Shown in pieces: positions 1-12,862 of a stretch of 12,862 nt of DNA (position 1 is its first letter; every line of letters starts with the position of its first letter). Made by a program: the position numbers and the translations under genes. Below the pieces are notes generated by a model, which made no database searches, was not told the DNA's origin, and was given only the letters and a program-made list of their open reading frames with translations. Source of the DNA: Prevotella sp. (lineage in GTDB: Bacteria; Bacteroidota; Bacteroidia; Bacteroidales; Dysgonomonadaceae); contig JAISES010000141.1 of assembly GCA_031263965.1 (NCBI GenBank), positions 1-12,862 of the forward strand, in the 5' to 3' direction.

Positions 1-549
1 GAGATGGTTAGTATCAATGAATTATTAAAACTCTCTAAAAGAGGGCTTCAGATAAAGGGTGATTCGAGAGCGGAAGTTGCCCGCCGCCTGAACCGGATTG
101 TAAAAGGAAATGGCGTCGCCCGTTTGATAGATTTTCTGTCGTTATTACATTATATAGCTTCGGAGGGCGATTATCATGTGCTATCAAGCTTGGGCTTTAC
201 CAGTACACTCGACCAGCAAGACCTTTCTCGCCTGAATAAAATATTCGATTATTTGTTAAAGAATTTCCAGAAAAACATAACGCTCGGCGAGATGTCTAAA
301 ATCGCAAGCATGAGTTCGGCGGCAATTTGCCGGTATTTTAAAGACCGTACAAACAAAACGTTCATCACGTTCCTGAACGAAATAAGAGTTGGGCATGCCT
401 GCAAATTATTGATTGAAAAGAAAGAAATGAATATTTCGGAAATTTGTTTTGAATGTGGCTTTAATAACCTGACAAACTTCAATATCCAGTTTAAAAAACT
501 AAAGAAAATGCCCCCTATGCTTTATCGGGAAACCTATAACTCACCGTAA
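1..549 (+). CDS. AraC-family transcriptional regulator, C-terminal part (5' end outside window)
   Basis: This is the DNA-binding end of an AraC/XylS-type activator. The reading frame is open from base 1 (Glu codon, then ATG at 4). The residues after this ATG (RRGLQIKGDSRAEVARRLNRI) match the linker that follows the sensor domain in full-length relatives of about 290 residues, so the ATG at 4 is probably internal and the N-terminal cupin-like sensor lies upstream. Counting from that ATG, the two helix-turn-helix motifs occupy about residues 75-178. The first contains ITLGEMSKIASMSSAAICRY. The second has the family signature ISEICFECGFNNLTNFNIQF followed by FKKLKKMPP and YRE. It stops at TAA 547-549. 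The next gene starts about 220 bp downstream behind a promoter with direct repeats, so this protein is the natural candidate to control the locus. The ligand is unknown. Family assignment is secure; the regulatory target is inferred from position. Confidence 0.9.
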   Translation, partial: EMVSINELLKLSKRGLQIKGDSRAEVARRLNRIVKGNGVARLIDFLSLLHYIASEGDYHVLSSLGFTSTLDQQDLSRLNKIFDYLLKNFQKNITLGEMSKIASMSSAAICRYFKDRTNKTFITFLNEIRVGHACKLLIEKKEMNISEICFECGFNNLTNFNIQFKKLKKMPPMLYRETYNSP

Positions 550-766: not shown

Positions 767-1645
767 ATGGATCAGCACGGTATTACAACGGATTTACGTA
801 AAAAGGCCTCAATAATTCAGCAAATGGCGCAACAATGCCGTATAGAGGTTTTTGAAATGATTCACCGGAGAGGAAACGGGCACTGGGGAGGTTCGTCTTC
901 CTGTATGGAAATACTTGCAACCTTATATTTTTATATATTGAAAATTGATCCCAAAAACCCCACCTGGGAAGAACGCGACAGGATTATCCTGAGTAAAGGG
1001 CATGCAGCGCCTATATTATATAATGTATTAGCGCATAAAGATTTTTTCCCATTAGAGGAACTTGCTTCATTCCGATCGCTGAATAGCCGCCTGCAAGGGC
1101 ATCCCTGTATGTTGAAGACGCCGGGTGTTGAATTATCTACCGGTTCTCTGGGGCATGGTATATCGGTTGGACTGGGGATGGCATTGGCCGCCCGGTTGAC
1201 ACAAAAGGTATATTGGACATTTGTTCTCGTCGGGGAAGGCTGCCTGAATGAAGGCCAAAGCTGGGAAGCGCTTATGGCGACGGCCAAATACAAACCATCA
1301 CGATTTGTTGTAATGGTTGACTATAACAAAGTCCAACTCGACGGAACGAATGATGCGATTATGCCTCTTGAGCCTTTAAGAAACAAATTCGAATCATTCA
1401 ATCTTACTGTAGCCCCGGAGGTATACGACGGACATAATGTATGGGAGATTATGCGTTCCTGGCAGTGGGCGCAACAGCATCAGGAGGTTCCTTGCATAAT
1501 TATCTTCGATACACATAAAGGAAAAGGGATTTCTTTTACCGAAGACGATCCTAAATGGCATGGATGCCCGATTGACAACCAGTCTTATCAGGCCGGAAAG
1601 ATTGAGTTGGAAAACACATTAAACAGGAATAACGATGAAAGCTGA
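767..1645 (+). CDS. Split transketolase, N-terminal (thiamine diphosphate-binding) subunit
   Basis: This cytosolic protein is the first half of a two-subunit transketolase, which moves a two-carbon ketol unit from a ketose to an aldose using ThDP and Mg. I start it at ATG 767 (292 aa). The frame is open upstream to a GTG at 689, but the -7 promoter element lies at 708-715, so upstream starts would not be transcribed. Family features by residue: GNGHWGGSSS with His39, SKGHA with His79, GHP with His112, the ThDP motif GEGCLNEG at 156-163, Asn187 in VDYNKVQLDG, and WHG with His265. The first motif residue after Gly is Glu157 where most transketolases have the metal-binding Asp (GDG). It overlaps the C-subunit start by 11 bp, so the pair is translationally coupled. 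The missing half being next door makes the function solid; the sugar substrate is not readable. Apulose-4-phosphate and sulfo-sugar transketolases are also split in this way. Confidence 0.9.
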   Translation: MDQHGITTDLRKKASIIQQMAQQCRIEVFEMIHRRGNGHWGGSSSCMEILATLYFYILKIDPKNPTWEERDRIILSKGHAAPILYNVLAHKDFFPLEELASFRSLNSRLQGHPCMLKTPGVELSTGSLGHGISVGLGMALAARLTQKVYWTFVLVGEGCLNEGQSWEALMATAKYKPSRFVVMVDYNKVQLDGTNDAIMPLEPLRNKFESFNLTVAPEVYDGHNVWEIMRSWQWAQQHQEVPCIIIFDTHKGKGISFTEDDPKWHGCPIDNQSYQAGKIELENTLNRNNDES

Positions 1646-2582
1646 TAATCTATCTATGCGGGACGCCTATGGCGACGAATTGGTGAAATTAGGCGACGTA
1701 TATCCCGAACTAACCGTATTAGATTCGGATGTATCGTCAAGTACGCGAACGGTTCTTTTTGCGGAAAAATACCCGGAACGTTTTTTTAATGTCGGAGTTG
1801 CAGAAGCGAATATGGTTGATATAGCGGGAGGATTGGCGTTGGGAGGATTGAAGCCTATCGTAAACTCGTTTGCCATATTCCTGGCATTAAAGGCAACAGA
1901 GCAGATCAGGAATGTGATTTGCTATAATAATCTTCCGGTAATCCTGGCGGGAAGTTATGCCGGACTTTCCGATTCGTATGATGGAGCAAGCCATCAGTCC
2001 ATCGAAGATATTGCGATTATGAGGGTAATCCCTAACTTAAATGTAATTGTCCCGGCCGATGCCATCGAGCTGCGACAGGCATTACGGCAGGCATTAACGC
2101 TAAATACCCCTACTTATCTCCGTATTTGCCGCAACCCGTCGCCTGTATTATTTGAAGATTCGGAACCCTATAAGTTTAGTAAGATACGGATCATAAAAGA
2201 AGGAAAAGATATAACTATTGCAGCTTGTGGCATTACTGTTTCAATGGCCATGCAGGCCATCGAAGAACTCGAAAAGCAAAATATTTCCGCAGAACTATTA
2301 AATGTTTCAACTATCAAACCGTTGGATGGAGGAACTATACTTACTTCGGTAAAGAAAACAAACTGTCTTTTAACGGTTGAAGAACATTCGGTATCAGGAG
2401 GATTAGGCGGCGCCATCGCTGAATTTATAGCGAACAGGTTGCCGCTACTTACTGATTTTGCAGGAATAAACGATACTTTTACGGAAACCGGAGGATATGA
2501 AGAACTGTTAGACAAGTATCAAATCTCTACTAAAGCGATTGTAAAAAAAGCATTGAAACTAATCCAATCGAAAGTCCTTTGA
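1635..2582 (+). CDS. Split transketolase, C-terminal (pyrimidine-binding) subunit
   Basis: This is the second half of the heteromeric transketolase (315 aa), with the Pyr domain at about residues 1-170 and the C-terminal transketolase domain after that. The start ATG at 1635 has an AGGAA ribosome-binding sequence (about 1625-1629) and lies inside the end of the N-subunit. Visible functional residues: Arg9 (aligns with E. coli TktA Arg358), Ser34-36 (Ser385 region), catalytic Glu57 in GVAEANMVDIAGG (Glu411), Asp116 and His120 in DGASHQSIEDIA (Asp469 and His473), Arg166 in RICRN (Arg520), and VEEHSVSGGLGGAIAEF in the C domain. At the position of the phosphate-contacting His461, usually THAG or SHAG in split enzymes, this protein has Tyr108 (GSYAGLSDSYDG). 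The following VGE is replaced by DSY. The catalytic core is intact but the phosphate end of the substrate pocket is altered. Function is secure; substrate is open. Confidence 0.9.
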   Translation: MKADNLSMRDAYGDELVKLGDVYPELTVLDSDVSSSTRTVLFAEKYPERFFNVGVAEANMVDIAGGLALGGLKPIVNSFAIFLALKATEQIRNVICYNNLPVILAGSYAGLSDSYDGASHQSIEDIAIMRVIPNLNVIVPADAIELRQALRQALTLNTPTYLRICRNPSPVLFEDSEPYKFSKIRIIKEGKDITIAACGITVSMAMQAIEELEKQNISAELLNVSTIKPLDGGTILTSVKKTNCLLTVEEHSVSGGLGGAIAEFIANRLPLLTDFAGINDTFTETGGYEELLDKYQISTKAIVKKALKLIQSKVL

Positions 2583-2617
2583 TTGATTGAGTGCAGACAG
2601 AAGAAGTGATTTTTAAT

Positions 2618-2632
2618 ATATTGATGCAATAT
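2618..2632. promoter_or_regulatory. Short palindrome upstream of promoter P2 (possible protein-binding site)
   Basis: ATATTG and CAATAT form a perfect 6-bp inverted repeat around ATG, 11 bp upstream of the promoter block that begins at 2644. A related but different palindrome, ACAAT-N4-ATTGT, lies at 643-656 just before promoter P1. Both are short and AT-rich, so chance is a real possibility. They could be operator half-sites for a second regulator. Confidence 0.2.
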
Positions 2633-2643
2633 CGATGAAATAA

Positions 2644-2699
2644 TTAAAACAGGTGCAAATATTTTTAAAACCACATAACTTCTAAATACTTACTTTTGG
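2644..2699 (+). promoter_or_regulatory. Promoter P2 with AraC-type direct repeat, upstream of the MFS gene
   Basis: TACTTTTG at 2691-2698 is an exact TAnnTTTG -7 element. Upstream lie TTAAAACA (2644-2651) and AATATTTTTAAA (2658-2669), with TTAAAACC (2665-2672) repeating the first block at a 21-bp period. Each block and each spacer length is the same as in P1 (6 bp, then 21 bp to TACTTTTGG). Inside the last spacer TAAAT also aligns. Transcription would begin near 2703-2706, giving a leader of about 20 nt before ATG 2724. This promoter would serve the MFS-isomerase-dehydrogenase run and possibly the SusC/D genes beyond, since no TAnnTTTG is visible before SusC. Confidence 0.65.
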
Positions 2700-2723
2700 C
2701 AATGATCAATAAACAACTATTCC

Positions 2724-3998
2724 ATGAAAATTAAGAACTACAGATGGTGGATTGTTGGATTGCTGGCGATAGTAACAGCTATCAATTATTTAGACAGGCA
2801 AAACTTTCCCTTGGTTTATGCCGAAATCAAGAATACAATCCCAATATCCGACTCTCAATATGGGCTGTTAAGTAGTTTGTTTCTCTTAACGTATGGAACG
2901 ATGTATGCTGTCGGAGGAAGAATCATCGACACCTTGGGCTCGAAAGTCAGTTATATCATTTTTGTAGTTTGGTGGTCGGTATCCAATATTCTTCATGGAT
3001 TAGTATCAAGTGTTTCAGGGTTAGGAATAGCGCGTTTCTTGCTAGGGGCCGGTGAAGGTGGCGCTTTTCCGGCTTCGGCAAAAGTTGTATCGGAATGGTT
3101 TCCCAAGAAAGAACGTTCTACGGCCTTTGGTATTTTTAATACCGGGTCGAGTATTGGAGCCATTGTTGCTCCCATGCTGATTTTTCTGATTGTTGATTCG
3201 TTGGGAAGTTGGCGATGGACGTTTATTGTCTTTGGCCTCATCGGATTAGTGTGGGTATTTGCCTGGATAAAGATGTTTGATATTCCGGCTAAAAGCAACT
3301 ATGTTACTGAAGAAGAAAAGAATTTTATTATCGAAGGCCATGCTGCAAACGATAAGATTGAAAATACCGGACGAAAAGAAAAGGTATCTTTATTATCATT
3401 AATAAAGGTAAGGGAATTATGGGGGCTTCTTATCATGAAGCTACTGACTGATTCGGCCTGGTTCTTCTTTATCTTCTGGCTGCCTAAATATTTGAATGAT
3501 ATGCGGGGATTGGATATCCAGAGAATTGGTATGTATGCCTGGATTCCTTATGCCTTTGCGGCAGTTGGTAGTTTAATAGGGGGATGGCTGAGTAGTTTTT
3601 TAATCAAAAAAGATATTTCACTCGATACTTCCCGGAAGATAGCATTAGGTATTGCTGCGGCTATGCTGCCGGCGTCCTTATTTATTACCTCTACGTCCTC
3701 TGTCTTGTTTGCTATATTCTTCTTTGGTATCGCTATGATGGGGCATCAGTTTTGGTCTACGATTGTTCAGACGTTGGCCGTTGATATGTTTCCATCTAAG
3801 GTAGTAGGCACAGTTTCCGGATTGATGGGATGTATCGGTACTTACGGAGCGATGATTTTCAGTTTTATTATAGGTTTTGTAATACAACATCAAGGTTATA
3901 CACCGGCATTTATTGTTTCGGGAATACTACATCCCATATCATTTGTCCTGGTATTCCTTATCATAAGAAAGATTACACCGGTCCACCAAAAATTATAA
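2724..3998 (+). CDS. MFS transporter, anion:cation symporter (ACS) type
   Basis: This is an inner-membrane importer of 424 aa with about 12 hydrophobic segments, the usual MFS size. Near the start is NYLDRQNFPL (residues 21-30), followed by an MFS motif A-like loop GGRIIDTLGSK (64-74). The stretch RFLLGAGEGGAFP (104-116) and WFPKKERSTAFGIFNTGSS (125-143) are hallmarks of the ACS family, whose known members (ExuT, GudP and relatives) carry hexuronates, sugar acids and other organic anions. The ATG at 2724 follows promoter P2 closely, making it the first gene of the run. Four bases separate its stop from the next gene. By family it probably imports a negatively charged sugar or its breakdown product, though neutral substrates cannot be excluded. 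Export of an anionic end product is a possible alternative. Confidence 0.88.
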   Translation: MKIKNYRWWIVGLLAIVTAINYLDRQNFPLVYAEIKNTIPISDSQYGLLSSLFLLTYGTMYAVGGRIIDTLGSKVSYIIFVVWWSVSNILHGLVSSVSGLGIARFLLGAGEGGAFPASAKVVSEWFPKKERSTAFGIFNTGSSIGAIVAPMLIFLIVDSLGSWRWTFIVFGLIGLVWVFAWIKMFDIPAKSNYVTEEEKNFIIEGHAANDKIENTGRKEKVSLLSLIKVRELWGLLIMKLLTDSAWFFFIFWLPKYLNDMRGLDIQRIGMYAWIPYAFAAVGSLIGGWLSSFLIKKDISLDTSRKIALGIAAAMLPASLFITSTSSVLFAIFFFGIAMMGHQFWSTIVQTLAVDMFPSKVVGTVSGLMGCIGTYGAMIFSFIIGFVIQHQGYTPAFIVSGILHPISFVLVFLIIRKITPVHQKL

Positions 3999-4002
3999 GG
4001 AA

Positions 4003-4812
4003 ATGAAATTATCAATAGCTATTACATCCGAACATGCCCTTCCTAGTGCATTTGTCGTATTCCGGGGATTTGAAGAATCTATCCTGCAGGCTGCCGCATT
4101 AGGATATGACGGCGTTGAACTGGCGCTGAAAAATGCAGGAGAAATAAACCGTAAAGAACTGCAAGCATTGCTGAACAAGACAAGGCTCCGGGTTTGTTGT
4201 ATTTCTACTGGACAGGTATATGCGGAAACAGGATTGATGTTTACAGATGTGGACCGATGGAAAAGGGCGGAAGTTAGAAAAATATTCAAAGGAATGATTG
4301 ACTTGGCTGCCGATTTCGGACAGTTCGTAAATATAGGAAGGGCCAGAGGACAAATAGACGAAGAAGGGGTAGATGCCGCCGAAGAACGATTTGTTGAAAT
4401 AATTTGCGAATTGGCTGATTATGCAGTTACTAAAGAAGTGGGGCTTTTACTTGAACCGGTCAACCGGTATGAGATAAACTTCATTAATTCGGTAGAAGAA
4501 GGAGCCCGACTTTTAAAGAAAATAAATCATCCGAATATCAAATTAATGCCGGATGTTTTTCATATGAATATAGAAGATGTCAAAATCGGTGCTGAATTAT
4601 TGAGGCATATTAATTATATTGGCTATATTCATTTAGCCGATTCCAATCGATTGGCTCCCGGTTGGGGGCATACAGACTTTGAAGATATATTTAATCACCT
4701 GGAAACGGCTGGGTATAAAGGTTGGTTTTCCGTTGAGATATTACCCAAACCCGAGCCCCGTATTGCCGCCAAACAAGCAATAGAATTTCTAAGGCCATTT
4801 TTGAAAAAATAA
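4003..4812 (+). CDS. TIM-barrel sugar isomerase/epimerase (tagatose-3-epimerase / hydroxypyruvate-isomerase superfamily)
   Basis: This cytosolic enzyme of 269 aa belongs to the AP-endonuclease-2-like TIM-barrel group (xylose isomerase-like). The expected metal ligands are visible: Glu151 in LLLEPVNRYE, Asp184 in LMPDVFHMNIED, His210 in YIHLADSNR and Glu245 in SVEILPKP. EPVNRYE..F.NS and DVFHMNIE are typical of ketose 3-epimerases (tagatose/psicose 3-epimerase) and related keto-sugar isomerases, which act on free, non-phosphorylated sugars as well as some derivatives. An AAGGA ribosome-binding site overlaps the MFS stop codon, only a few bases before ATG 4003. Tight coupling with the transporter suggests it acts early on the imported sugar, supplying a ketose with a suitable C3/C4 configuration for the transketolase. 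The exact substrate is unknown. Confidence 0.85.
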   Translation: MKLSIAITSEHALPSAFVVFRGFEESILQAAALGYDGVELALKNAGEINRKELQALLNKTRLRVCCISTGQVYAETGLMFTDVDRWKRAEVRKIFKGMIDLAADFGQFVNIGRARGQIDEEGVDAAEERFVEIICELADYAVTKEVGLLLEPVNRYEINFINSVEEGARLLKKINHPNIKLMPDVFHMNIEDVKIGAELLRHINYIGYIHLADSNRLAPGWGHTDFEDIFNHLETAGYKGWFSVEILPKPEPRIAAKQAIEFLRPFLKK

Positions 4813-4833
4813 ACTTATAAAAACGACACGGAT

Positions 4834-6123
4834 ATGGAGAAAATAAAACAAGAAGCCATACAACTTCTGATTGGATTTAAAGGAGATAAATACATTTTCG
4901 GTACCGGAGTATTTAGCAGGTTAGGTACGGAAGTCGCTAAATTAGGTAAAAAAGTTTCCGTAATTATTGACGGTTTGGGATATGAATGGGCTTCTTCCAT
5001 AATTCGTGGCGTGGAGCAAAGCGTATCGTCGGCAGGATTGACAATAACCGGGGATTATATTCACGGGGCAAGGCCCAACGCACCGCGTGAAGATGTATTT
5101 GCTATCGCAGAAAAAATCAAAGAACAAAAGCCGGATGCCGTATTATCATTTGGAGGCGGAAGTACGACAGACGCCGTCAAAGCGGCTATCGCTTTTCATT
5201 GCTTGGGAGATAAGTATCCCGATATTGATGATTATTTCGGTACGGGAGAAGTTAGCAAGATGCTGGCCGAAACGAAAAGGAATATGCTTCCCCATTTCGC
5301 TGTCATGACGGTAGCCGGTTCGGCAGCCCATTTAACGAAGTATTCCAATATAACTGATATTCATACCGGACAAAAGCTGTTAATGGTAGATGAAGCGTTG
5401 GTACCCGCCATGGCAATGTTTGATTATTCATTCTCGGCTACCCAACCTCCTTCACTAACTATTGACGGTGCTTTAGATGGTATTTCCCATGGGTTGGAAG
5501 CATTGATGGGTATTCCGGAGGCGCTCTATGCCAAAGCCGAACCGGTTTGTTTAACCTGTATCGAGCTAATCGTAAACAATATAAAGAAAGTAGTAAGCGC
5601 TCCGAATAATATAACAGCACGCGAAGCCGTTGGCTTGGGAACCGATCTGGGAGGATATGCCATCATGATCGGAGGAACAAACGGAGCGCATCTGAATAGT
5701 TTTTCTATGACGGATATCTTATCTCACGGGCGTGCATGTGCTTTGTTGAATCCTTACTATGTCGTATTCTTCTCAACAAGTATCAGTGAACGGTTGAAAA
5801 AGGTAGCGCAGATTTATAAAAGAGCAGGATATATCAGCGAAGACATTGAAACACTTAACGGCCGCGAACTCGGATTAACAGTAGCCGGAGGGATGATTAA
5901 GTTGTCGGAAGATATATGTTTTCCTACAACGTTAAAAGAGGTACCCGGTTACAGAGAAGCGCATAAAATAAAATGCCTGAAAGCTGCGAAAGACCCGAAA
6001 TTAGAATCAAAACTAAAAAATATGCCGGTTCCGATGCAATCAACGGATGTTGATAAATATATGGCGCCCATTTTAGAAGCCGCAGAAAGCGGAAATATGA
6101 GCTTGATTAAAAATATACAATAA
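4834..6123 (+). CDS. Metal-dependent (iron-type) alcohol dehydrogenase
   Basis: This NAD(P)-dependent alcohol dehydrogenase/aldehyde reductase belongs to the group III iron-containing family, 429 aa against a usual 380-430. The N-terminal Rossmann-like half carries the nucleotide motif GGGSTTD at 107-113 and AGSAAHLTKYSNITD at 162-175. The all-helical half carries the metal ligands Asp215 and His219 (LDGISHGLEAL), His286 (NGAHLNSF) and His298 (DILSHGRA). The last two histidines are 12 residues apart instead of the 14 in FucO-like enzymes, marking a distinct subfamily. It starts 21 bp after the isomerase, so it is part of the same transcript. A likely job is to reduce a short aldehyde end product, or to oxidise or reduce the imported sugar. 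Family members SarD and TauF reduce sulfoacetaldehyde, which is relevant to the pathway proposed here. Family secure, substrate unknown. Confidence 0.87.
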   Translation: MEKIKQEAIQLLIGFKGDKYIFGTGVFSRLGTEVAKLGKKVSVIIDGLGYEWASSIIRGVEQSVSSAGLTITGDYIHGARPNAPREDVFAIAEKIKEQKPDAVLSFGGGSTTDAVKAAIAFHCLGDKYPDIDDYFGTGEVSKMLAETKRNMLPHFAVMTVAGSAAHLTKYSNITDIHTGQKLLMVDEALVPAMAMFDYSFSATQPPSLTIDGALDGISHGLEALMGIPEALYAKAEPVCLTCIELIVNNIKKVVSAPNNITAREAVGLGTDLGGYAIMIGGTNGAHLNSFSMTDILSHGRACALLNPYYVVFFSTSISERLKKVAQIYKRAGYISEDIETLNGRELGLTVAGGMIKLSEDICFPTTLKEVPGYREAHKIKCLKAAKDPKLESKLKNMPVPMQSTDVDKYMAPILEAAESGNMSLIKNIQ

Positions 6124-6170
6124 TCTATAAACAAATAAGCCTATGGTAAAAAACAAATAATCAAAAGAAA

Positions 6171-6204
6171 ATTGACCGGATTACCGCCACATGACCCGGT
6201 CAAT
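6171..6204 (+). other. Intergenic inverted repeat / mRNA hairpin before SusC
   Basis: ATTGACCGG (6171-6179) and CCGGTCAAT (6196-6204) are perfect reverse complements separated by 16 nt. The stem is GC-rich in an otherwise AT-rich gap. No run of T follows, so it is not a good intrinsic terminator. It could protect or separate the upstream message from the SusC/SusD message, act in attenuation, or be a dimeric protein-binding site. The rest of the 143-bp gap shows no TAnnTTTG promoter. Confidence 0.5.
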
Positions 6205-6266
6205 GAAATCAGTTTATTAAACGGATTTAAAAAATATAAGTAAAAACTTAACAATAGTACAAATTT

Positions 6267-9200
6267 ATGAAAAAAAAAGAATACATGGATAAAAGATGTT
6301 TTTTTATCTCCATTTTCAAAACAATTGTTTTTATTGAATTAGCCCTGATCCTTCTGTTATTGTGCCCGGTTATCACTTTTGCCAATAATAACAACCCTGA
6401 AAGGAGACAGCTAATATTACCTGACCTGCCACAAAATAGCAGAAGTATTAATGGCACGGTTACAGACCGCAACGGAGAGCCGATTACCGGCGCTAATATT
6501 GTTGTTAAAGGAACTACGAACGGAGTTATTTCGGACATTGACGGTAATTATACGATACAGGCGCAATCGGGCGATATCCTTATTATTTCCTATATAGGAT
6601 TTATCAGTCAGGAAATTACCGTAGGAAACCAGTTACGTATAGATGTAACGCTTCAAGAAGATTTACAACGTCTGGAAGAAGTCGTTGTGGTTGGTTATGG
6701 AACGATGAAAAAGAAAGATATAACCGGCGCTGTAAGTTCGGTAAGTACTGAAAAATTAAAATCGGAAATGCCAAGGACCGTTCAGGAATTATTGCGTGGA
6801 AATATTCCCGGGCTGGAAGTGGGATTTTCAACGAATGCTCAGGGCGGAGGTTATTTTGAAATCAGAGGGGTCAATTCACTGACAGCCTCGTCTTCTCCGT
6901 TGCTTGTGGTGGATGGTGTTATTTTCCAAGGAGCTATGTCTGATATAAATCCGTATGATATTCAAACGGTTGACGTATTAAAAGATGCTTCGTCTGCTGC
7001 CGTATACGGAGCAAAGGCTGCCAATGGCGTAATCCTGATCACGACAACGAAAGGAGGTGAAGGAACCGGAAAGCCTATGATAAATATGTCTGCCAATGTA
7101 GGGTATGTTACACCCGGTAAAATGGCGCATTTATACAAATCGTACGATTTTATCAAATGGAGGCAGGATGTACTGCGTTCAATGAACTGGTATAGTTCAC
7201 CCGGCAATGAAAAGTTGTATTTATTCGATCATCCGGACAAACTACCCGCAGGGGTAACGATGGACATGTGGATGGATGGAAAAACAGGTAACCCCGAAGA
7301 TATATGGCTTTCCAGATTAGGATTGGGTAGCCTTGAAATTGCGAATTATAAAGCCGGCAAATCGATTGACTGGGAAGACGAAGTCTATCAAAGCGGCTTT
7401 ATGCAGGATTATAACCTGTCTGTTTCCGGAACAAAGGATAAAACCTCTTATTATTGGTCGTTAAATTATACAGATAACGATGGCATCGTAACCGGAGATT
7501 GGTATAAAAATTACCGTAGCAGGCTTAAATTCGATTTTGATATCACTAAGTGGCTGACAGTTGGTATTAATGCTGCGTTTGCAGAAAAGAATGAAAGCGC
7601 TGTTACGGCAAATAATTGGATTATCAGAGATAATTCCCCGTGGGGTTCCAAATATAATGATGATGGCGAAACGCTCCGGTATAGCCCGATAGACGATCCG
7701 CTTGGTTCGGTAAACCCGTTGTATACCATGTCGCATACGGATCAATCGGTGTTATACCGGAAACTGAATGCCAATATGTATGGTATGCTTAAATTACCAT
7801 ATAATATTTCCTATCAGATGACTTTCTCGCCTTACTATTCATTTCATGAAGAATATATTCATTTTTCATCTAAACATGAAGAATATAGAGTTTCGGGAGG
7901 GGAAGCAATCCGGGAAAACAGTACGACATTCAACTGGCAAGTCGACAATTTACTGAAATGGTATTACACCTTCAATGACATTCACAAGGTTGACGCCACT
8001 TTTCTTTTTAATGCGGAAAAGAATCAATATTGGTCAGATGGGATGTTGGGAATGGGATTCAGCCCGACGGATGCATTAGGCTATCATTCGATGTCATCGG
8101 CCAGTTCGGCCAACATCTGGAGTAATGATACATATAGTACGGGGACATCTCTGATGGGACGGTTGTTTTATTCGTTTAAAGACAGGTATATGCTGACGAC
8201 CTCTATCCGTCGCGACGGATATTCCGCCTTCGGAATCAATAATCCTTACGGAGTATTCCCCGCTGTAGCTTTAGGATGGGCTGCTACGGAGGAGGATTTT
8301 CTCAAGAATGATCTGTTTTACGGAAAACTTCGTTTCTCCTGGGGAGAGAACGGAAACAGGGAAATCGGTATTTATGATGCATTATCAGACATGAGTGTCG
8401 GAAAAATGACTTATGCCACCCCTACCGGTGCGGGCTACGAGAAAGTCTTATTGTATATTGAAAATATGGCGAATAATGACCTGAAATGGGAAAGAACCCG
8501 CTCTTTTAATTTCGGGTTGGATTATTCGATAAAAAGCGGTTTGGTCAGCGGATCCGTTGAATATTATAGCGAGCAGACACATGACTTGCTGGTATCCCGT
8601 GTGCTGCCCGACGTGACCGGATATAGAAAAGTTACCACAAACTTAGGGGAAGTTCAGAACAAGGGTATTGAGTTAAACCTGAATGCCAAGTTAATTGATA
8701 AGAAAAACTTCTTGTGGCAGGCGAACGTCAATTTCTTTTTAAACAGAAATAAAATCGTCAGTTTGTATGGAGATATGGAAGATGTGTATGATAACGACGG
8801 AAACATTATCGGTCAGAAGGAATCCGACGATATAACAAACGAGTGGTTTATCGGCAAGGCATTAGACCGGATATGGGGGCCGCGTGTGCTGGGTATCTGG
8901 CAACAGGGAGAGGAAGAGCAGGCAAGAGTGTACGGACAATATCCCGGGGACTTCAAAGTGGAAGATGTTGACGGTGACGAAAGGATCAGCGAAGATGACA
9001 ATGTGTTCCAGGGATATAGAAATCCTCGCTTCAGATGGAATATGCGGCATGATTTTAATCTGTTTAAGAATATAAATCTTTCCTTTAATTTATACTCTCA
9101 CTGGGGCCATTACGGTGACTATAACCAAGTAGCAAAAGATAATGGCAAGAACGACAGAAATAATGATTTTAATTATCCTTACTGGACTCCCGAAACGCCT

Positions 9201-9476
9201 TATGAACAGTATTATGGTAGAATCGGGACATATCATGCCGGATCTTCCTTTACTGTTTACAAGAAGCGGTCGTTTATCCGGTTGGAAAATATCTCCGTGT
9301 CGTACAGAATGCCTTCAAAGATATGTAAATTCATACAGGTGGAAAATCTAACGGTTTCGGGTTCGATCCGAAACGCGGCCGTGTGGGCTCCCGACTGGGA
9401 TTTTGGAGACCCGGAAGTTGATAATGGCTATCCGGCACCAAGATATTTTACATTAGGCATTAATTTAACGTTATAA
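6267..9476 (+). CDS. SusC-like TonB-dependent outer-membrane transporter
   Basis: This is the outer-membrane import channel, 1069 aa, normal for SusC proteins. It has an N-terminal signal peptide (basic start, hydrophobic stretch about residues 19-38, ending near TFA), then a carboxypeptidase-regulatory-like domain at about 60-130 (NGTVTDRNGEPITGANIVVKG and YIGFISQEITV). The SusC signature LEEVVVVGYGTMKKKDITGA follows at about 136-155, then a plug domain to about residue 265 (LLVVDGVIF, DASSAAVYGAKAANGVILIT) and a long beta-barrel ending in the aromatic-poor strand YFTLGINLTL. There is no STN signalling domain, so control by an anti-sigma pair is unlikely. A second ATG at 6285 could also be the start. 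It forms the usual pair with the SusD gene 21 bp downstream. Its cargo is an oligosaccharide or glycoside too large or too scarce for porins; identity unknown. Confidence 0.95.
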   Translation: MKKKEYMDKRCFFISIFKTIVFIELALILLLLCPVITFANNNNPERRQLILPDLPQNSRSINGTVTDRNGEPITGANIVVKGTTNGVISDIDGNYTIQAQSGDILIISYIGFISQEITVGNQLRIDVTLQEDLQRLEEVVVVGYGTMKKKDITGAVSSVSTEKLKSEMPRTVQELLRGNIPGLEVGFSTNAQGGGYFEIRGVNSLTASSSPLLVVDGVIFQGAMSDINPYDIQTVDVLKDASSAAVYGAKAANGVILITTTKGGEGTGKPMINMSANVGYVTPGKMAHLYKSYDFIKWRQDVLRSMNWYSSPGNEKLYLFDHPDKLPAGVTMDMWMDGKTGNPEDIWLSRLGLGSLEIANYKAGKSIDWEDEVYQSGFMQDYNLSVSGTKDKTSYYWSLNYTDNDGIVTGDWYKNYRSRLKFDFDITKWLTVGINAAFAEKNESAVTANNWIIRDNSPWGSKYNDDGETLRYSPIDDPLGSVNPLYTMSHTDQSVLYRKLNANMYGMLKLPYNISYQMTFSPYYSFHEEYIHFSSKHEEYRVSGGEAIRENSTTFNWQVDNLLKWYYTFNDIHKVDATFLFNAEKNQYWSDGMLGMGFSPTDALGYHSMSSASSANIWSNDTYSTGTSLMGRLFYSFKDRYMLTTSIRRDGYSAFGINNPYGVFPAVALGWAATEEDFLKNDLFYGKLRFSWGENGNREIGIYDALSDMSVGKMTYATPTGAGYEKVLLYIENMANNDLKWERTRSFNFGLDYSIKSGLVSGSVEYYSEQTHDLLVSRVLPDVTGYRKVTTNLGEVQNKGIELNLNAKLIDKKNFLWQANVNFFLNRNKIVSLYGDMEDVYDNDGNIIGQKESDDITNEWFIGKALDRIWGPRVLGIWQQGEEEQARVYGQYPGDFKVEDVDGDERISEDDNVFQGYRNPRFRWNMRHDFNLFKNINLSFNLYSHWGHYGDYNQVAKDNGKNDRNNDFNYPYWTPETPYEQYYGRIGTYHAGSSFTVYKKRSFIRLENISVSYRMPSKICKFIQVENLTVSGSIRNAAVWAPDWDFGDPEVDNGYPAPRYFTLGINLTL

Positions 9477-9497
9477 TCATTTAAAACACTATAGAAA

Positions 9498-11378
9498 ATG
9501 AAAACAATTGTCGTAAAACTGAGTTTGGCGCTGTTTTTTATATATTCGCTGGTTGGATTCGCCGGTTGTGGCGCTGATTTTTTAGAGCCTAAGCCGTTAT
9601 CTTTCTTCTCTCCCAACAATGTGTTTCACGATGCGGAAGGGTTTATGTCTGTTATCAGGGCATGTGATGAAAAGGTTCGTTCGGAATTTTATACCAATGG
9701 CGACCGGTCGTTTTTTGCCGATGAATATATTTATTCCGATGTGGCTGTGGAAGGGCTGAGCGACCAGGCTTCCTGTATTCAGGATATTATCCAGAAAATC
9801 ACACCGTCGGCGGCATTAAATATTGAAAATTGCAGGATTGGCTGGTTTTGGCAATCAGCTTATCAGCGAATCAAATATACCAATGTCGTTTTATCCCGGA
9901 TAGATGATGTTGAGTTGTCGGACGAAAAGGAGAAAAACAAGATAAAGGGTATGGCCTATTTCCACCGTGCTTATGCTTACTACCGTCTTGTCAATTTATT
10001 TGGCGATGTTCCTTTCCTCGGACAGGAATTGACGGAACCCAAAGTGGATTATGCTTCAACCAAACGGGATGTTATCTTAAGAAAGATGAAAAAAGACATG
10101 GAACTGGCCGTTCAATGGTGTACCGATGGGATGGACAGAGGAGATGTTACGAAAGGAGCCTGTTTACATTTGCTGACAAAGATAAATCTGGCGTTAGGCG
10201 AATTTGACGATGCCATTTCGTCGGCATCAGCGCTTATTGACGGAGGAGTATACTCGTTAATGACCGAACCTTTCGGATCAATACCGGAAGAAGAAGGTCC
10301 TTTTCTCAGGGATTTGGGAGTTGTAAGGGATGATGTGGTATCCCAGTTACACTGGCAGGAAAACAAAGCTATCGCAGAAAACAAAGAGGTGCTTTATATG
10401 GCTGTTTCGAGAGAAGATCTGACCGGTTCGCGGGTGAATACTTATTCCATGAGGCTTTGCCTTCCCTGGTGGAGCCGGACAGCCGCTAATCAATTGTACA
10501 CACCGGACGGAAAAAGAGGTATGTCCGACGGGGCCGATAACGAATTTGATTTAGTAAAAACATTCGGGCGGGGTATCGGGCGTGTACGCGGAACAAAATA
10601 CCATACGCAGGATATATGGGATGATGCCAATGACCTCCGGCATAAAAAATACAATTGGATGGAAATGGAATACATGGTGTACAATAATCCGGACATCAAA
10701 GAAGATAGCCCGTATTATGGACAACCTCTCCGAAAATTCAATGATGATGGTTCCGTATTGACGTCGGACTCTATTAACTGCTGGTATGGTTGGCCGCATT
10801 ATAAACTTTATACGTTAGACCCCCGTACCCCGCAAGCAAGAGGAGGAGCCGCCGACTGGTATATATTCAGGCTTGCGGAAACCTATTTGCTGAGAGCAGA
10901 AGCTTATTGGTGGAAAAATCAGTTGTCTGAAGCGATGAGTGACGTAAATGCCGTCAGAACAAGGGCGAAATGTTTGCCTTATACCAATACCGCCGGGTTT
11001 AATATCGGTACGATTCTGGACGAACGGGCCCGCGAATTATTCTATGAGGAGCCCAGAAGAACCGAATTAACCCGTATTGCCTTTATTTTCGCAAAAACCG
11101 GAAAAGAATTTAACGGCCAATCTTATTCATTAAATAATATTGGGACAAAGAATTTTTATTTTGATTGGGTAAACGAAAAAAATGATTTTTATAACAAAGG
11201 GATTAAAAGTAATTCCGGGCAATTTTATACCTTAGGCACCTGGCATATATTATGGCCTGTACCTCAAACAACCATCAGTGCAAACACGAAAGGGATAATA
11301 AACCAGAATTACGGATATGCAGGATACGAAAACAATATCGAACCCTTAGGCGAAATTCCACCCGAAGAAGATAATTGA
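9498..11378 (+). CDS. SusD/RagB-family surface glycan-binding lipoprotein
   Basis: This outer-membrane lipoprotein of 626 aa caps the SusC channel and captures the substrate. The signal peptide ends in a lipobox FAGC with the lipidated Cys24, followed by the typical GADFLEPKP start of mature SusD proteins. TPR-like helices are visible, for example around residues 150-172 (MAYFHRAYAYYRLVNLFGDVP) and 451-475 (WYIFRLAETYLLRAEAYWW). The C-terminal region contains ERARELFYEEPRRTELTRIAF, the usual family motif, and the protein ends with a normal SusD tail (WPVPQTTI..N). At 626 aa it is slightly longer than average for SusD proteins. Start at ATG 9498, 21 bp after SusC. No further surface binding protein (SusE/F type) follows; the next gene is a cytosolic isomerase. 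Confidence 0.95.
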   Translation: MKTIVVKLSLALFFIYSLVGFAGCGADFLEPKPLSFFSPNNVFHDAEGFMSVIRACDEKVRSEFYTNGDRSFFADEYIYSDVAVEGLSDQASCIQDIIQKITPSAALNIENCRIGWFWQSAYQRIKYTNVVLSRIDDVELSDEKEKNKIKGMAYFHRAYAYYRLVNLFGDVPFLGQELTEPKVDYASTKRDVILRKMKKDMELAVQWCTDGMDRGDVTKGACLHLLTKINLALGEFDDAISSASALIDGGVYSLMTEPFGSIPEEEGPFLRDLGVVRDDVVSQLHWQENKAIAENKEVLYMAVSREDLTGSRVNTYSMRLCLPWWSRTAANQLYTPDGKRGMSDGADNEFDLVKTFGRGIGRVRGTKYHTQDIWDDANDLRHKKYNWMEMEYMVYNNPDIKEDSPYYGQPLRKFNDDGSVLTSDSINCWYGWPHYKLYTLDPRTPQARGGAADWYIFRLAETYLLRAEAYWWKNQLSEAMSDVNAVRTRAKCLPYTNTAGFNIGTILDERARELFYEEPRRTELTRIAFIFAKTGKEFNGQSYSLNNIGTKNFYFDWVNEKNDFYNKGIKSNSGQFYTLGTWHILWPVPQTTISANTKGIINQNYGYAGYENNIEPLGEIPPEEDN

Positions 11379-11414
11379 AATCATAAAGTACAAACAACAT
11401 TAAAAACGTTTACT

Positions 11415-11906
11415 ATGGAACCTGGTGAAATATGGATAGCCAATGATCACGGAGGATATAAGTTGAAGCTTCTGATTACGGATTATTTATCGGAAAAAGG
11501 AATACCCTTTAAAAATATCGGATGTGATTCGGAGGAAATCGTTCGGTATCCGCATTATGCAGCAATCGTAGCAGGCGCCGTCTCCCGGCATGTAATTAAC
11601 AGGGGAATCCTGATTTGTTCGACGGGTATCGGGATGAGCATCATAGCTAATAAATTCAAAGGCGTCAGGGCTTCTTTATGTACCGGTACCTATATGGCGA
11701 AAATGACGCGCCTGCATAACGATTCGAATATACTATGTTTAGGTGGGAAAATTACAGGCGATTTTGAAGCATTGGATATTCTTGAAACATGGTTGTATAC
11801 GGAATTCGAAGGAGGGAGGCACTGTATTTCACTGGGTTTGATAGAGGAAGCGGAAGAAGTTATCTGCAATCCTAAAATAAGCAAGATATGGAAAAACGAA
11901 TTATAA
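11415..11906 (+). CDS. LacAB/RpiB-family sugar isomerase with altered phosphate-binding residues
   Basis: This cytosolic aldose-ketose isomerase of 163 aa has the fold of ribose-5-phosphate isomerase B and LacA/LacB. Catalytic residues are present: Asp11-His12 (ANDHGG), Cys68 in the anion-hole loop ICSTGIGMS (E. coli RpiB Cys66), and His101-Asn102-Asp103 (E. coli His99), plus WLYTEFEGGRH. The phosphate-binding arginines are not all kept. Aligned to E. coli RpiB, Arg110 is Lys112, Arg133 is Arg135, and Arg137 is Ser139 (GGRHCIS instead of GGRHxxR). This suggests a substrate without the usual terminal phosphate, or with another anionic group. The C-terminal tail after residue 140 is also unlike the usual one. 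SqwI, the sulfoerythrose isomerase of the sulfo-transketolase pathway, is to my recollection an RpiB-like enzyme. It lies 36 bp after SusD and overlaps the next gene by 19 bp. Fold and catalysis are confident; the substrate is not. Confidence 0.88.
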   Translation: MEPGEIWIANDHGGYKLKLLITDYLSEKGIPFKNIGCDSEEIVRYPHYAAIVAGAVSRHVINRGILICSTGIGMSIIANKFKGVRASLCTGTYMAKMTRLHNDSNILCLGGKITGDFEALDILETWLYTEFEGGRHCISLGLIEEAEEVICNPKISKIWKNEL

Positions 11907-12862
11907 ATGCCCTGGTGCTGTTATGTTTTTTGATTGTTTTCTCTCAGAAAACAATTGCACAGGAGAAAGTAACGATACCGGTAGAAATCGTAACGGATAA
12001 GATTCGCGGAGGGTTATTAGGACAGATATTGGGTAATCTGAATGGGATTCCTCATGAGATGAGTTATATTAATGAACCGGGGGATGTCCGGAACTATATC
12101 CCGTCTTTGCCGGAAGGGGCGCGTTCCGACGACGATACCGACTTTGAGTGGTTCTACGTCTACGAAATGCAGAAGAACAGAAAGCTTATGTTGGATACCG
12201 GTTATATTACACAACTGTGGATAGAACGTGTGAACAAAGGAGTATGGTTTTCCAACCGGTTTGTCCGCTACCTGATGGATATTGGTTTTAAGCCGCCTTA
12301 TACAGGTTATACGGAATTTAACCCGTGGGCCGAATTTAATATATCGGGGCAATTCTTGTGCGAAACATACGGCCTCCTTGCACCGGCAATGCCTCAGACA
12401 GCCGCGAAAATCGGATTGAACTATACGACGGTTGCCATTAACGGCGAACCGGCTCAGACAACACAGTTTTTTACAACCATGATAGCAACCGCCTTTGTAG
12501 AAAATGATATAAATAAGATACTGGATGCCGGAATCGCCTCCTTAGATAATCGAAGTATCATAAGGCGGATTACAGATGATATAAGAGAATGGCATAAAGA
12601 AAACCCTGTTGATTGGAAAAAGGCCAGGCAACTACTGAGAGACAAATATACACAGGAGAATGGCAAGACAAGAGACAGCAACGGATACGAACTCAATACA
12701 GGCGCTATTATTGCCGCCTTATTGTATGGCGACGGAGACTTTGCCGAAACAATTAAGCATGCTTTTAATTGGGGATGGGATGCCGACTGTAATGCCGCAA
12801 CAGCAGGAACGATCATCGGTGTAACCTACGGATATCGCCGGATGATGACGCAGAGCAAAAGG
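11888..12862 (+). CDS. Exported ADP-ribosylglycohydrolase-family protein (3' end outside window)
   Basis: The frame from ATG 11888 stays open for 325 codons to the last base, so the C-terminus is missing. Residues 1-24 form a signal peptide (MEKR, hydrophobic core NALVLLCFLIVF, cleavage near TIA-QEK), which places the protein in the periplasm or at the surface. The ADP-ribosylglycohydrolase fold is recognisable from DKIRGGLLGQILGN (37-50), the metal motif SDDDTDFEW (80-88) and GWDADCNAATAG (296-307) with Asp298 and Asp300. A Cys replaces the Thr of the classic GGDTDT motif. Cytosolic members remove ADP-ribose from proteins, but an exported one beside SusC/D more likely hydrolyses a glycosidic, perhaps ribosidic, bond in the nutrient. 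The Bacteroides rus ribose locus also carries such a gene. Its start overlaps the isomerase by 19 bp. Family assignment is good; nutrient hydrolysis is inference. Confidence 0.85.
   Translation, partial: MEKRIINALVLLCFLIVFSQKTIAQEKVTIPVEIVTDKIRGGLLGQILGNLNGIPHEMSYINEPGDVRNYIPSLPEGARSDDDTDFEWFYVYEMQKNRKLMLDTGYITQLWIERVNKGVWFSNRFVRYLMDIGFKPPYTGYTEFNPWAEFNISGQFLCETYGLLAPAMPQTAAKIGLNYTTVAINGEPAQTTQFFTTMIATAFVENDINKILDAGIASLDNRSIIRRITDDIREWHKENPVDWKKARQLLRDKYTQENGKTRDSNGYELNTGAIIAALLYGDGDFAETIKHAFNWGWDADCNAATAGTIIGVTYGYRRMMTQSKR

Follow-up and report, generated by a model that had tools for sequence, protein, structure and literature searches.

A transketolase (TK) that acts without a kinase is best known from the sulfo-TK pathway (SqwGH/SqwI/SqwF), which, according to PMC12890257 and PMC11659671, couples a split TK to an isomerase of the RpiB family and an iron-type alcohol dehydrogenase (Fe-ADH) for a ketose that cannot be phosphorylated. 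In the 5-keto-L-gluconate/D-tagaturonate branch (IolO in Thermotoga, LguG in Luteolibacter), as described in PMC12632266, these IolO-family enzymes epimerise 5-keto-L-gluconate, the 5-ketohexonates are unphosphorylated, and the ketohexonate is reduced and dehydrated to 2-keto-3-deoxygluconate. Moreover, according to PMC12016104, E. coli TktA carrying R358I/H461S/R520Q converts 5-keto-D-gluconate to tartaric semialdehyde. The locus described here fills the window, that is, the whole of contig JAISES010000141.1 (C181; 12,862 bases) of a metagenome-assembled genome (MAG) of Prevotella sp., and comprises ten genes on the forward strand: an AraC-family regulator, the two halves of a split TK (TktN and TktC), a major facilitator superfamily (MFS) transporter of the anion:cation symporter (ACS) type, an IolO-like epimerase, an Fe-ADH, SusC, SusD, an RpiB-like isomerase, and a secreted hydrolase of the ADP_ribosyl_GH family. 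The enzyme classes and, as far as the cut contig reaches, the absence of a kinase are those of the sulfo-TK pathway, whereas the TK group, the isomerase subfamily, the distant Fe-ADH, the IolO-like epimerase, and the SusC/D uptake are not. Judged from sequence comparison, the locus may encode an 'acid-TK' pathway, free of a kinase, for a 2-ketose that is carboxylated and not phosphorylated, an assignment that is put forward tentatively and at somewhat less than an even chance; the TK would take over the reduction and dehydration steps of the IolO/LguG branch.

TktN (767..1645, + strand; Pfam PF00456, 166 bits) is the N-terminal, thiamine diphosphate (ThDP) half of the enzyme, and TktC (1635..2582, +; Pfam PF02779/PF02780) is the pyrimidine-binding and C-terminal half; the genes overlap by 11 nt, and the start of TktN is placed at ATG 767, with GTG 689 as an alternative. 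With the residue numbers and roles that we take to hold for E. coli TK, one of the four phosphate ligands is changed in TktC (H461 to Tyr), while R358, S385, and R520 are intact and D469 and H473 are kept as well. At the positions R358/S385/H461/D469/H473/R520, C. hydrogenoformans reads RSHDHR, the window group RSYDHR in 18/18 rows, and a further group of seven, several with short-chain dehydrogenase/reductase (SDR) and GarR-type neighbours, RSSDHR. When the 120 best TktC homologues are read, 117 have Tyr in place of H461 (three unread; the motif counts over 120 best matches include the window's own protein), and identity in the protein database reaches 75%. Parabacteroides pacaensis has a TktC of 67% identity that carries the Tyr motif. 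The GHP motif of TktN is GHW in all 18 group rows, the window's among them, and in no other readable row. The engineered TktA also has H461 substituted and cleaves a carboxylated ketohexose; in PMC12016104 it is a laboratory variant changed at R358 and R520 too, both of which the window keeps, with Tyr at H461.

The TK phylogeny, built on 44 TktN+TktC rows (unrooted quick search, no bootstrap, support by the Shimodaira-Hasegawa-like approximate likelihood ratio test, SH-aLRT), groups the window with 17 spirochaete TKs (18 rows; SH-aLRT 100), a set that three clostridial TKs adjoin (SH-aLRT 93); the labels 'spirochaete' and 'clostridial' follow from the group in which the search around a titled MAG was made. 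A constraint that unites the window with the three clostridial TKs and leaves out the spirochaetes is rejected (approximately unbiased test, p-AU 8e-5); the group labels of the tree were fixed after the neighbours were known, and the AU p-values are descriptive. The window combines membership of the 18-row set, H461Y, and GHW with an IolO-like gene, a link found in 13 of the 17 other members. Several split TKs per genome occur in many of the spirochaete genomes examined, and in L135, a locus of the Ser-at-H461 group, TktC is followed by a gene for tartronate semialdehyde reductase (470 bits, cut-off 397), which suggests that other spirochaete split TKs also act on sugar acids. Ser-at-H461 split TKs lie with SDR genes and GarR-type 2-hydroxy-3-oxopropionate reductase genes in L135, L141, L147, and L148 (profile-checked in L135, read by eye from the sequence start in the other three), L135 also holds a transaldolase-family gene, and these loci suggest a TK route from pentonates to tartronate semialdehyde. 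A further split TK type, with Cys at H461 and Leu at D469, stands beside a different RpiB-like gene in L150 and L151.

The gene neighbourhoods of the spirochaete relatives give the TK group its likely substrate class. Among 392 genomes from the phylum to which a MAG titled Spirochaetales belongs, 18 have Fe-ADH, at 20 places, and 20 loci were examined (L004 and L031-L049, leaving aside L005, a short contig that has no TK genes). TktN and TktC of the window's type are present in 13 of these 20, and four loci found through TktC bring the total to 17 loci in 14 genomes; since 13 of the 17 were reached via Fe-ADH, the count of this gene is biased. In the stretches as fetched (12-20 kb), the 17 loci hold the tripartite tricarboxylate transporter (TTT) genes tctA and tctC (14 each), Fe-ADH (13, selected for), IolO-like, Asp/Glu-racemase-like, and GntR genes (13 each), PdxA-like genes (8), and LarA-like genes (7), and L035 carries a tripartite ATP-independent periplasmic (TRAP) transporter. 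Because 22 other split-TK loci used for comparison had mostly been fetched as shorter stretches, the genes were recounted within 6 kb on each side of TktC, a contig or stretch end cutting 3/17 and 2/22 of the stretches. The recount gives IolO-like genes in 13/17 against 2/22, Asp/Glu-racemase-like in 12/17 against 2/22, LarA-like in 6/17 against 1/22, GntR in 11/17 against 5/22, PdxA-like in 2/17 against 0/22, and Fe-ADH in 13/17 against 0/22; it lowers the TctA, PdxA, and GntR figures and leaves the epimerase, racemase-like, and LarA-like genes as the specific partners. Seven of the 20 Fe-ADH loci are without a window-type TK, and five of these carry a LarA-like gene; among the TK-less loci, an altronate/galactarate dehydratase is encoded in L034 and a regulator of the sugar-diacid-recognition type in L039. 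To judge from these neighbours, of which a part was scanned against profiles, a sugar acid is on balance the most likely substrate for the TK of the window's group. A gene of about 460 aa between Fe-ADH and IolO in spirochaetes had been considered as a DUF1537 four-carbon-acid kinase, and this was rejected since the protein is LarA-like. Other genes recorded at these loci are a sulfatase-family gene within or next to the TTT-transporter portion of the TK cluster (L126:15222-16706 and L004:2006-3475, 59% identical), a GntP-family permease downstream of the TK cluster (L004:14425-15768, by profile, and L127:16270-17613, 87% identical), and three consecutive related proteins of about 560-580 aa beside Fe-ADH (L047:4289-9395), two of which were scanned with no Pfam match.

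The Fe-ADH (4834..6123, +; metal-ligand motifs DxxxH, GAH, SHG) scores far under the cut-off of every NCBIfam model that it matches (SarD model, 89 against 700 bits), and its homologues reach 79% identity in the protein database. At E 1e-50 none of 100 relatives has it (101 genomes when the genome of the window is counted), and at E 1e-60 the one match among 395 Bacteroidota genomes is the genome of the window itself. Taking a shared longest-contig size (>=6 kb) as the sign of a common contig, Fe-ADH and TktC coincide 17 times among the 120 best matches of each search, against at most 1 in 120 shifted controls, and so co-occur more than by chance; Fe-ADH and RpiB coincide 7 times (shifted controls at most 2), and TktC and RpiB 3 times (at most 2), the latter a weak figure. 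The IolO-like protein (4003..4812, +), a TIM-barrel ketose 3-epimerase whose best PDB relative is TM_0416, scores 251.2 bits with NF041099, its best-scoring model, under the cut-off of 300. Transketolases require a D-threo donor, and the primary ketose of a pathway with a conserved 3-epimerase would therefore be erythro. Ribulose, 5-keto-D-galactonate, and psicuronate would fit an erythro primary ketose, and sulfofructose and fructuronate would need no 3-epimerase. The substrates of IolO and LguG would give no D-threo donor, so that either the epimerase differs in its substrate or the TK in its stereochemistry. The MFS transporter (2724..3998, +; motifs YLDR, RFLLGAGE) is nearest to TIGR00893 (ACS, D-galactonate transporter), its best-scoring model, at 255.9 bits against a cut-off of 395.

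The RpiB-like isomerase (11415..11906, +; motifs VRYP, ICSTG, LGGK, GGRHxxS) passes the TIGR01120 cut-off (166.7 against 138.65 bits) and belongs to a distinct subfamily, with homologues of up to 82% identity in the protein database and 35% identity to the canonical RpiB of its own genome. At its phosphate site, for which we presume the residue roles known from RpiB, GxR becomes K and GGRHxxR ends in S, with GGRH retained. Among 120 homologues, DYP reads RYP in 117, ICGTG reads ICSTG in 118 (2 unread), GxR has K in 101 and R in 13 (6 unread), and GGRHxxR reads GGRHxxS in 117 (1 Ala, 2 unread); at a guess, the new Arg might bind a carboxylate. The first-pass annotation of this DNA, which had both pentose-phosphate-type enzymes losing phosphate-contacting residues, was right in part: H461 of TktC and, in the RpiB-like protein, the positions with K and S are changed, but R358, S385, R520, and GGRH are in place. 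In the clostridial genome G1195 the order is zinc-type alcohol dehydrogenase (Zn-ADH), RpiB-like (71% identical to the window), GntR, IolO-like (58%), and a partial TktN, and TktC and a TIM-barrel protein follow on another contig, which begins with a repeat of the last part of this TktN; the Zn-ADH scores 375.8 bits with PRK10083 (cut-off 376), which we take to be E. coli YjjN/LgoD, L-galactonate 5-dehydrogenase. In G972, IolO-like and RpiB-like genes diverge from an operon of a regulator (by eye), ATP-binding cassette (ABC) transporter, TktN, TktC, and Gfo-Idh genes, and these two gene orders link the RpiB-like, IolO-like, and TK genes outside the window. The subfamily occurs in six genomes outside the window, four of which (G972, G1195, G1203, G826) also encode a TK from the group or from the clostridial set next to it, and two of which (G958, G1191) encode neither; G826 is the one spirochaete whose RpiB-like match stands out (176 bits, 58%; the rest at most 144 bits and 53%).

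In the pathway proposed from these comparisons, SusC/D and the secreted ADP_ribosyl_GH hydrolase would capture and release the substrate, and the ACS-type MFS would bring the sugar acid through the inner membrane. The Fe-ADH may oxidise a hexonate to a ketohexonate or, alternatively, reduce the final aldehyde, while the IolO-like enzyme would invert the carbon beside the keto group to give the D-threo form (e.g., 5-keto-D-galactonate to 5-keto-D-gluconate). TktN-TktC would then transfer a two-carbon unit to a phosphorylated acceptor; with glyceraldehyde 3-phosphate, for instance, the products would be xylulose 5-phosphate and an aldehyde acid of four carbons. In a step like that of SqwI in the sulfo-TK pathway, the RpiB-like enzyme could isomerise this acid, and a second round of the TK would then end in glyoxylate. 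Beside the observed genes, tree, residues, and neighbours, we infer every substrate and the order of the steps, the places of the Fe-ADH and the RpiB-like enzyme being the weakest. The general logic of the first-pass annotation, a TK acting on a non-phosphorylated and probably anionic ketose, finds support in the H461Y group, the link to an IolO-type epimerase, and the acid-type spirochaete neighbours. A uronate or another C6-modified sugar, which that annotation named as an alternative, is still a candidate substrate, with a riboside-type compound as a serious competitor.

Several observations weigh against a sugar-acid substrate or against a single shared cassette. RpiB-like, ADP_ribosyl_GH, nucleoside-hydrolase, and MFS genes are absent from the 17 spirochaete TK loci, and because the RpiB-like, ADP_ribosyl_GH, and MFS genes are missing there, the window set differs from theirs as a cassette. 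In the 6-kb recount the tie to transporters is modest (TctA, 9/17 against 6/22). L046 carries a sugar-type ABC ATPase and permease directly 3' of Fe-ADH, and L032 a similar set with a sugar-binding-type protein. In L126 the TK is 7 kb away from a gene of a kinase family (164 aa, gluconokinase by eye), and in L125 TktC is adjoined, on the opposite strand, by a gene of the FBP-aldolase family. Tyr takes the H461 position outside the group too (L129, L130, L131, L138, L140), the clostridial L083 has Asn there, and, because TktC keeps R358 and R520, phosphorylated donors could still be accepted. Within the order to which the window belongs, Fe-ADH is found at E 1e-60 in just two of 334 genomes, one of them the window's own; the second, G1365 (Fe-ADH 75% identical), is without a TK of the window group, and there the gene lies near a PfkB-kinase/nucleoside-hydrolase SusC/D locus. 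The context of the RpiB subfamily points to ribosides, and the 3-keto tetronic acid required for a second TK round is chemically labile. The recount, the ABC genes of L032 and L046, and the kinase-family and aldolase-family genes of L126 and L125 have lowered slightly the standing of the sugar-acid assignment and of the wider 'acid-TK' class. This class, for which the sequence evidence makes a possible rather than a probable case, would be an undescribed entry into central carbon metabolism, in which natural TKs with a remodelled phosphate site (Tyr here, Ser in the L135-type group) break down keto-sugar acids without a kinase in Bacteroidota, spirochaetes, and clostridia; the Bacteroidota version would be coupled to SusC/D and to a secreted ADP_ribosyl_GH protein acting as a sugar-releasing hydrolase and not as a protein de-ADP-ribosylase.

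The alternative that survives best, plausible although rather doubtful, is a riboside route, in which the ADP_ribosyl_GH protein (11888..12862, +, 3' end cut; Pfam PF03747, 84 bits; motifs DDDTD, DADC; signal peptide called by inspection) would free D-ribose or a non-phosphorylatable 5-modified ribose, the RpiB-like enzyme would form D-ribulose and the IolO-like enzyme D-xylulose, the TK would move two carbons to a phosphorylated acceptor, and the Fe-ADH would reduce the aldehyde left over, glyceraldehyde, to an alcohol. By the stereochemistry given above, ribulose would need exactly an IolO-type inversion at C3 to become a TK donor. The RpiB subfamily has ADP_ribosyl_GH-type or nucleoside-hydrolase neighbours in 4 of 6 other loci (the former in L084, L087, and L091, two nucleoside hydrolases in L085), its gene overlaps the ADP_ribosyl_GH gene by 19 nt in the window, and the sugar-type ABC genes of L046 and the surroundings of the G1365 Fe-ADH are in keeping with such a route. 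Conversely, the spirochaete relatives of the TK, IolO-like, and Fe-ADH genes travel with LarA-, PdxA-, and Asp/Glu-racemase-type genes, often with TTT transporters, no ADP_ribosyl_GH or nucleoside-hydrolase gene stands in their 17 loci, and the MFS is of the organic-anion type. A nucleoside-only reading drawn from G1365 was weakened in that the Fe-ADH there lies on the strand opposite to the kinase and hydrolase genes, in a genome that holds no TK of the window group. Bacteroides rus-type ribose loci likewise pair SusC/D with a ribosidase-type hydrolase; they use ribokinases, whereas the window is without a kinase. Through their relatives in spirochaetes, the TK, epimerase, and Fe-ADH speak for a sugar acid, whereas the RpiB-like and ADP_ribosyl_GH genes, through clostridial relatives, speak for a riboside or other furanoside; as judged from these affinities, both versions would be kinase-free TK pathways. 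Two further arrangements were recorded around these families: in L087 (1-2103), a protein of 700 aa, whose N-terminal domain is ADP_ribosyl_GH and whose C-terminal half is unannotated, stands in tandem with a second ADP_ribosyl_GH gene and an RpiB-like gene, and in L093-L094 (G1365:C9:53348-62204) SusC/D, a PfkB kinase, two nucleoside-hydrolase-family genes, and a permease lie close to Fe-ADH.

Ordinary pentose-phosphate use, with a sugar kinase off the contig and with the TK, RpiB, and epimerase acting on phosphates, is unlikely. No kinase or aldolase occurs among the ten window proteins scanned, as the first-pass annotation had it, although the contig is cut at both ends and for this reason a kinase may lie beyond it and the absence speaks for the window only. 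The TIGR01120 score over its cut-off, the three of four phosphate ligands retained in TktC, the kinase-family gene of L126, and the PfkB kinase near Fe-ADH in G1365 would suit phosphorylated substrates. Tyr at H461 throughout the 18 group rows, Ser for Arg in GGRHxxR in nearly the whole RpiB subfamily, the distance from the genome's own canonical RpiB, and an epimerase family known for unphosphorylated keto-sugars argue the other way.

A sulfo-TK pathway for sulfoquinovose (SQ) fed by SusC/D, one of the versions named by the first-pass annotation, is highly improbable, even though the enzyme classes are the same. Two spirochaete clusters, L143 (G853) and L146 (G821), have the order TktN-TktC-RpiB-FeADH-TauE expected for sulfo-TK and are probable sulfo-TK clusters; L143 also has a relative of SQ isomerase (205 bits, cut-off 700). 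Grouping the window TK with those of L143, L146, and L149 is rejected (p-AU 2.3e-51), the first two references being identified by context and L149, added after the tree, by tree alone, with no named Sqw protein in the set; this comparison followed the earlier hypothesis. The reference TKs read RADNHR in 3/3 rows, with Asp at H461 and Asn at D469, against Tyr and Asp in the window. The window RpiB-like protein is 37-38% identical to the L143/L146 isomerases, which lack GGRH, and the Fe-ADH 22-24% identical to theirs, while TauE, SQ isomerase, and GH31 genes are absent from the ten window proteins of the cut contig, and sulfofructose, being already D-threo, would need no 3-epimerase. Lastly, an apiose-type route with AptA/AptB transketolase on apulose 4-phosphate, which has in its favour the analogy of a split TK in a sugar operon, is barely tenable, as it needs an apulose kinase, of which the window has none, and the phosphate site of the TK is changed.

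As regards the remaining organisation of the locus, the contig comes from a 527-contig MAG of 3.52 Mb (82.7% complete, 5.8% contamination), and its ends truncate the 5' end of the AraC-family regulator, of which the C-terminal part is present (1..549, +; Pfam HTH_18, 72 bits), and the 3' end of the ADP_ribosyl_GH gene. The genes that the first-pass annotation had named were all found, co-oriented on the + strand, within its extent of 767..11906; it had missed the regulator and the hydrolase gene that flank them. SusC/RagA, the TonB-linked outer membrane transporter (6267..9476, +; TIGR04056, 734 bits), is followed by the SusD/RagB outer membrane lipoprotein (9498..11378, +; Pfam PF07980, 138 bits). 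Gaps are short between MFS and IolO-like (4 nt), IolO-like and Fe-ADH (21 nt), SusC and SusD (21 nt), and SusD and RpiB-like (36 nt), and larger between AraC and TktN (217 nt), TktC and MFS (141 nt), and Fe-ADH and SusC (143 nt). Rfam gives no match at the gathering score, and plasmid searches return relatives of less than 60% identity only.

In the open-licence papers of PubMed Central (PMC), the sulfo-TK pathway and the engineered TK are found, and no description of this TK group, gene set, or locus, in agreement with the earlier view that the locus was not known to be described. If the proposal holds, kinase-free TK catabolism would no longer be confined to a single sulfur sugar but would take in sugar acids or ribosides as well, and it would help to explain why many of the spirochaete genomes examined hold several split TKs each. 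Moreover, it would provide natural enzymes for a step that had previously been engineered, from 5-keto-D-gluconate to tartaric semialdehyde, and would give the secreted ADP_ribosyl_GH protein a testable role in sugar catabolism.

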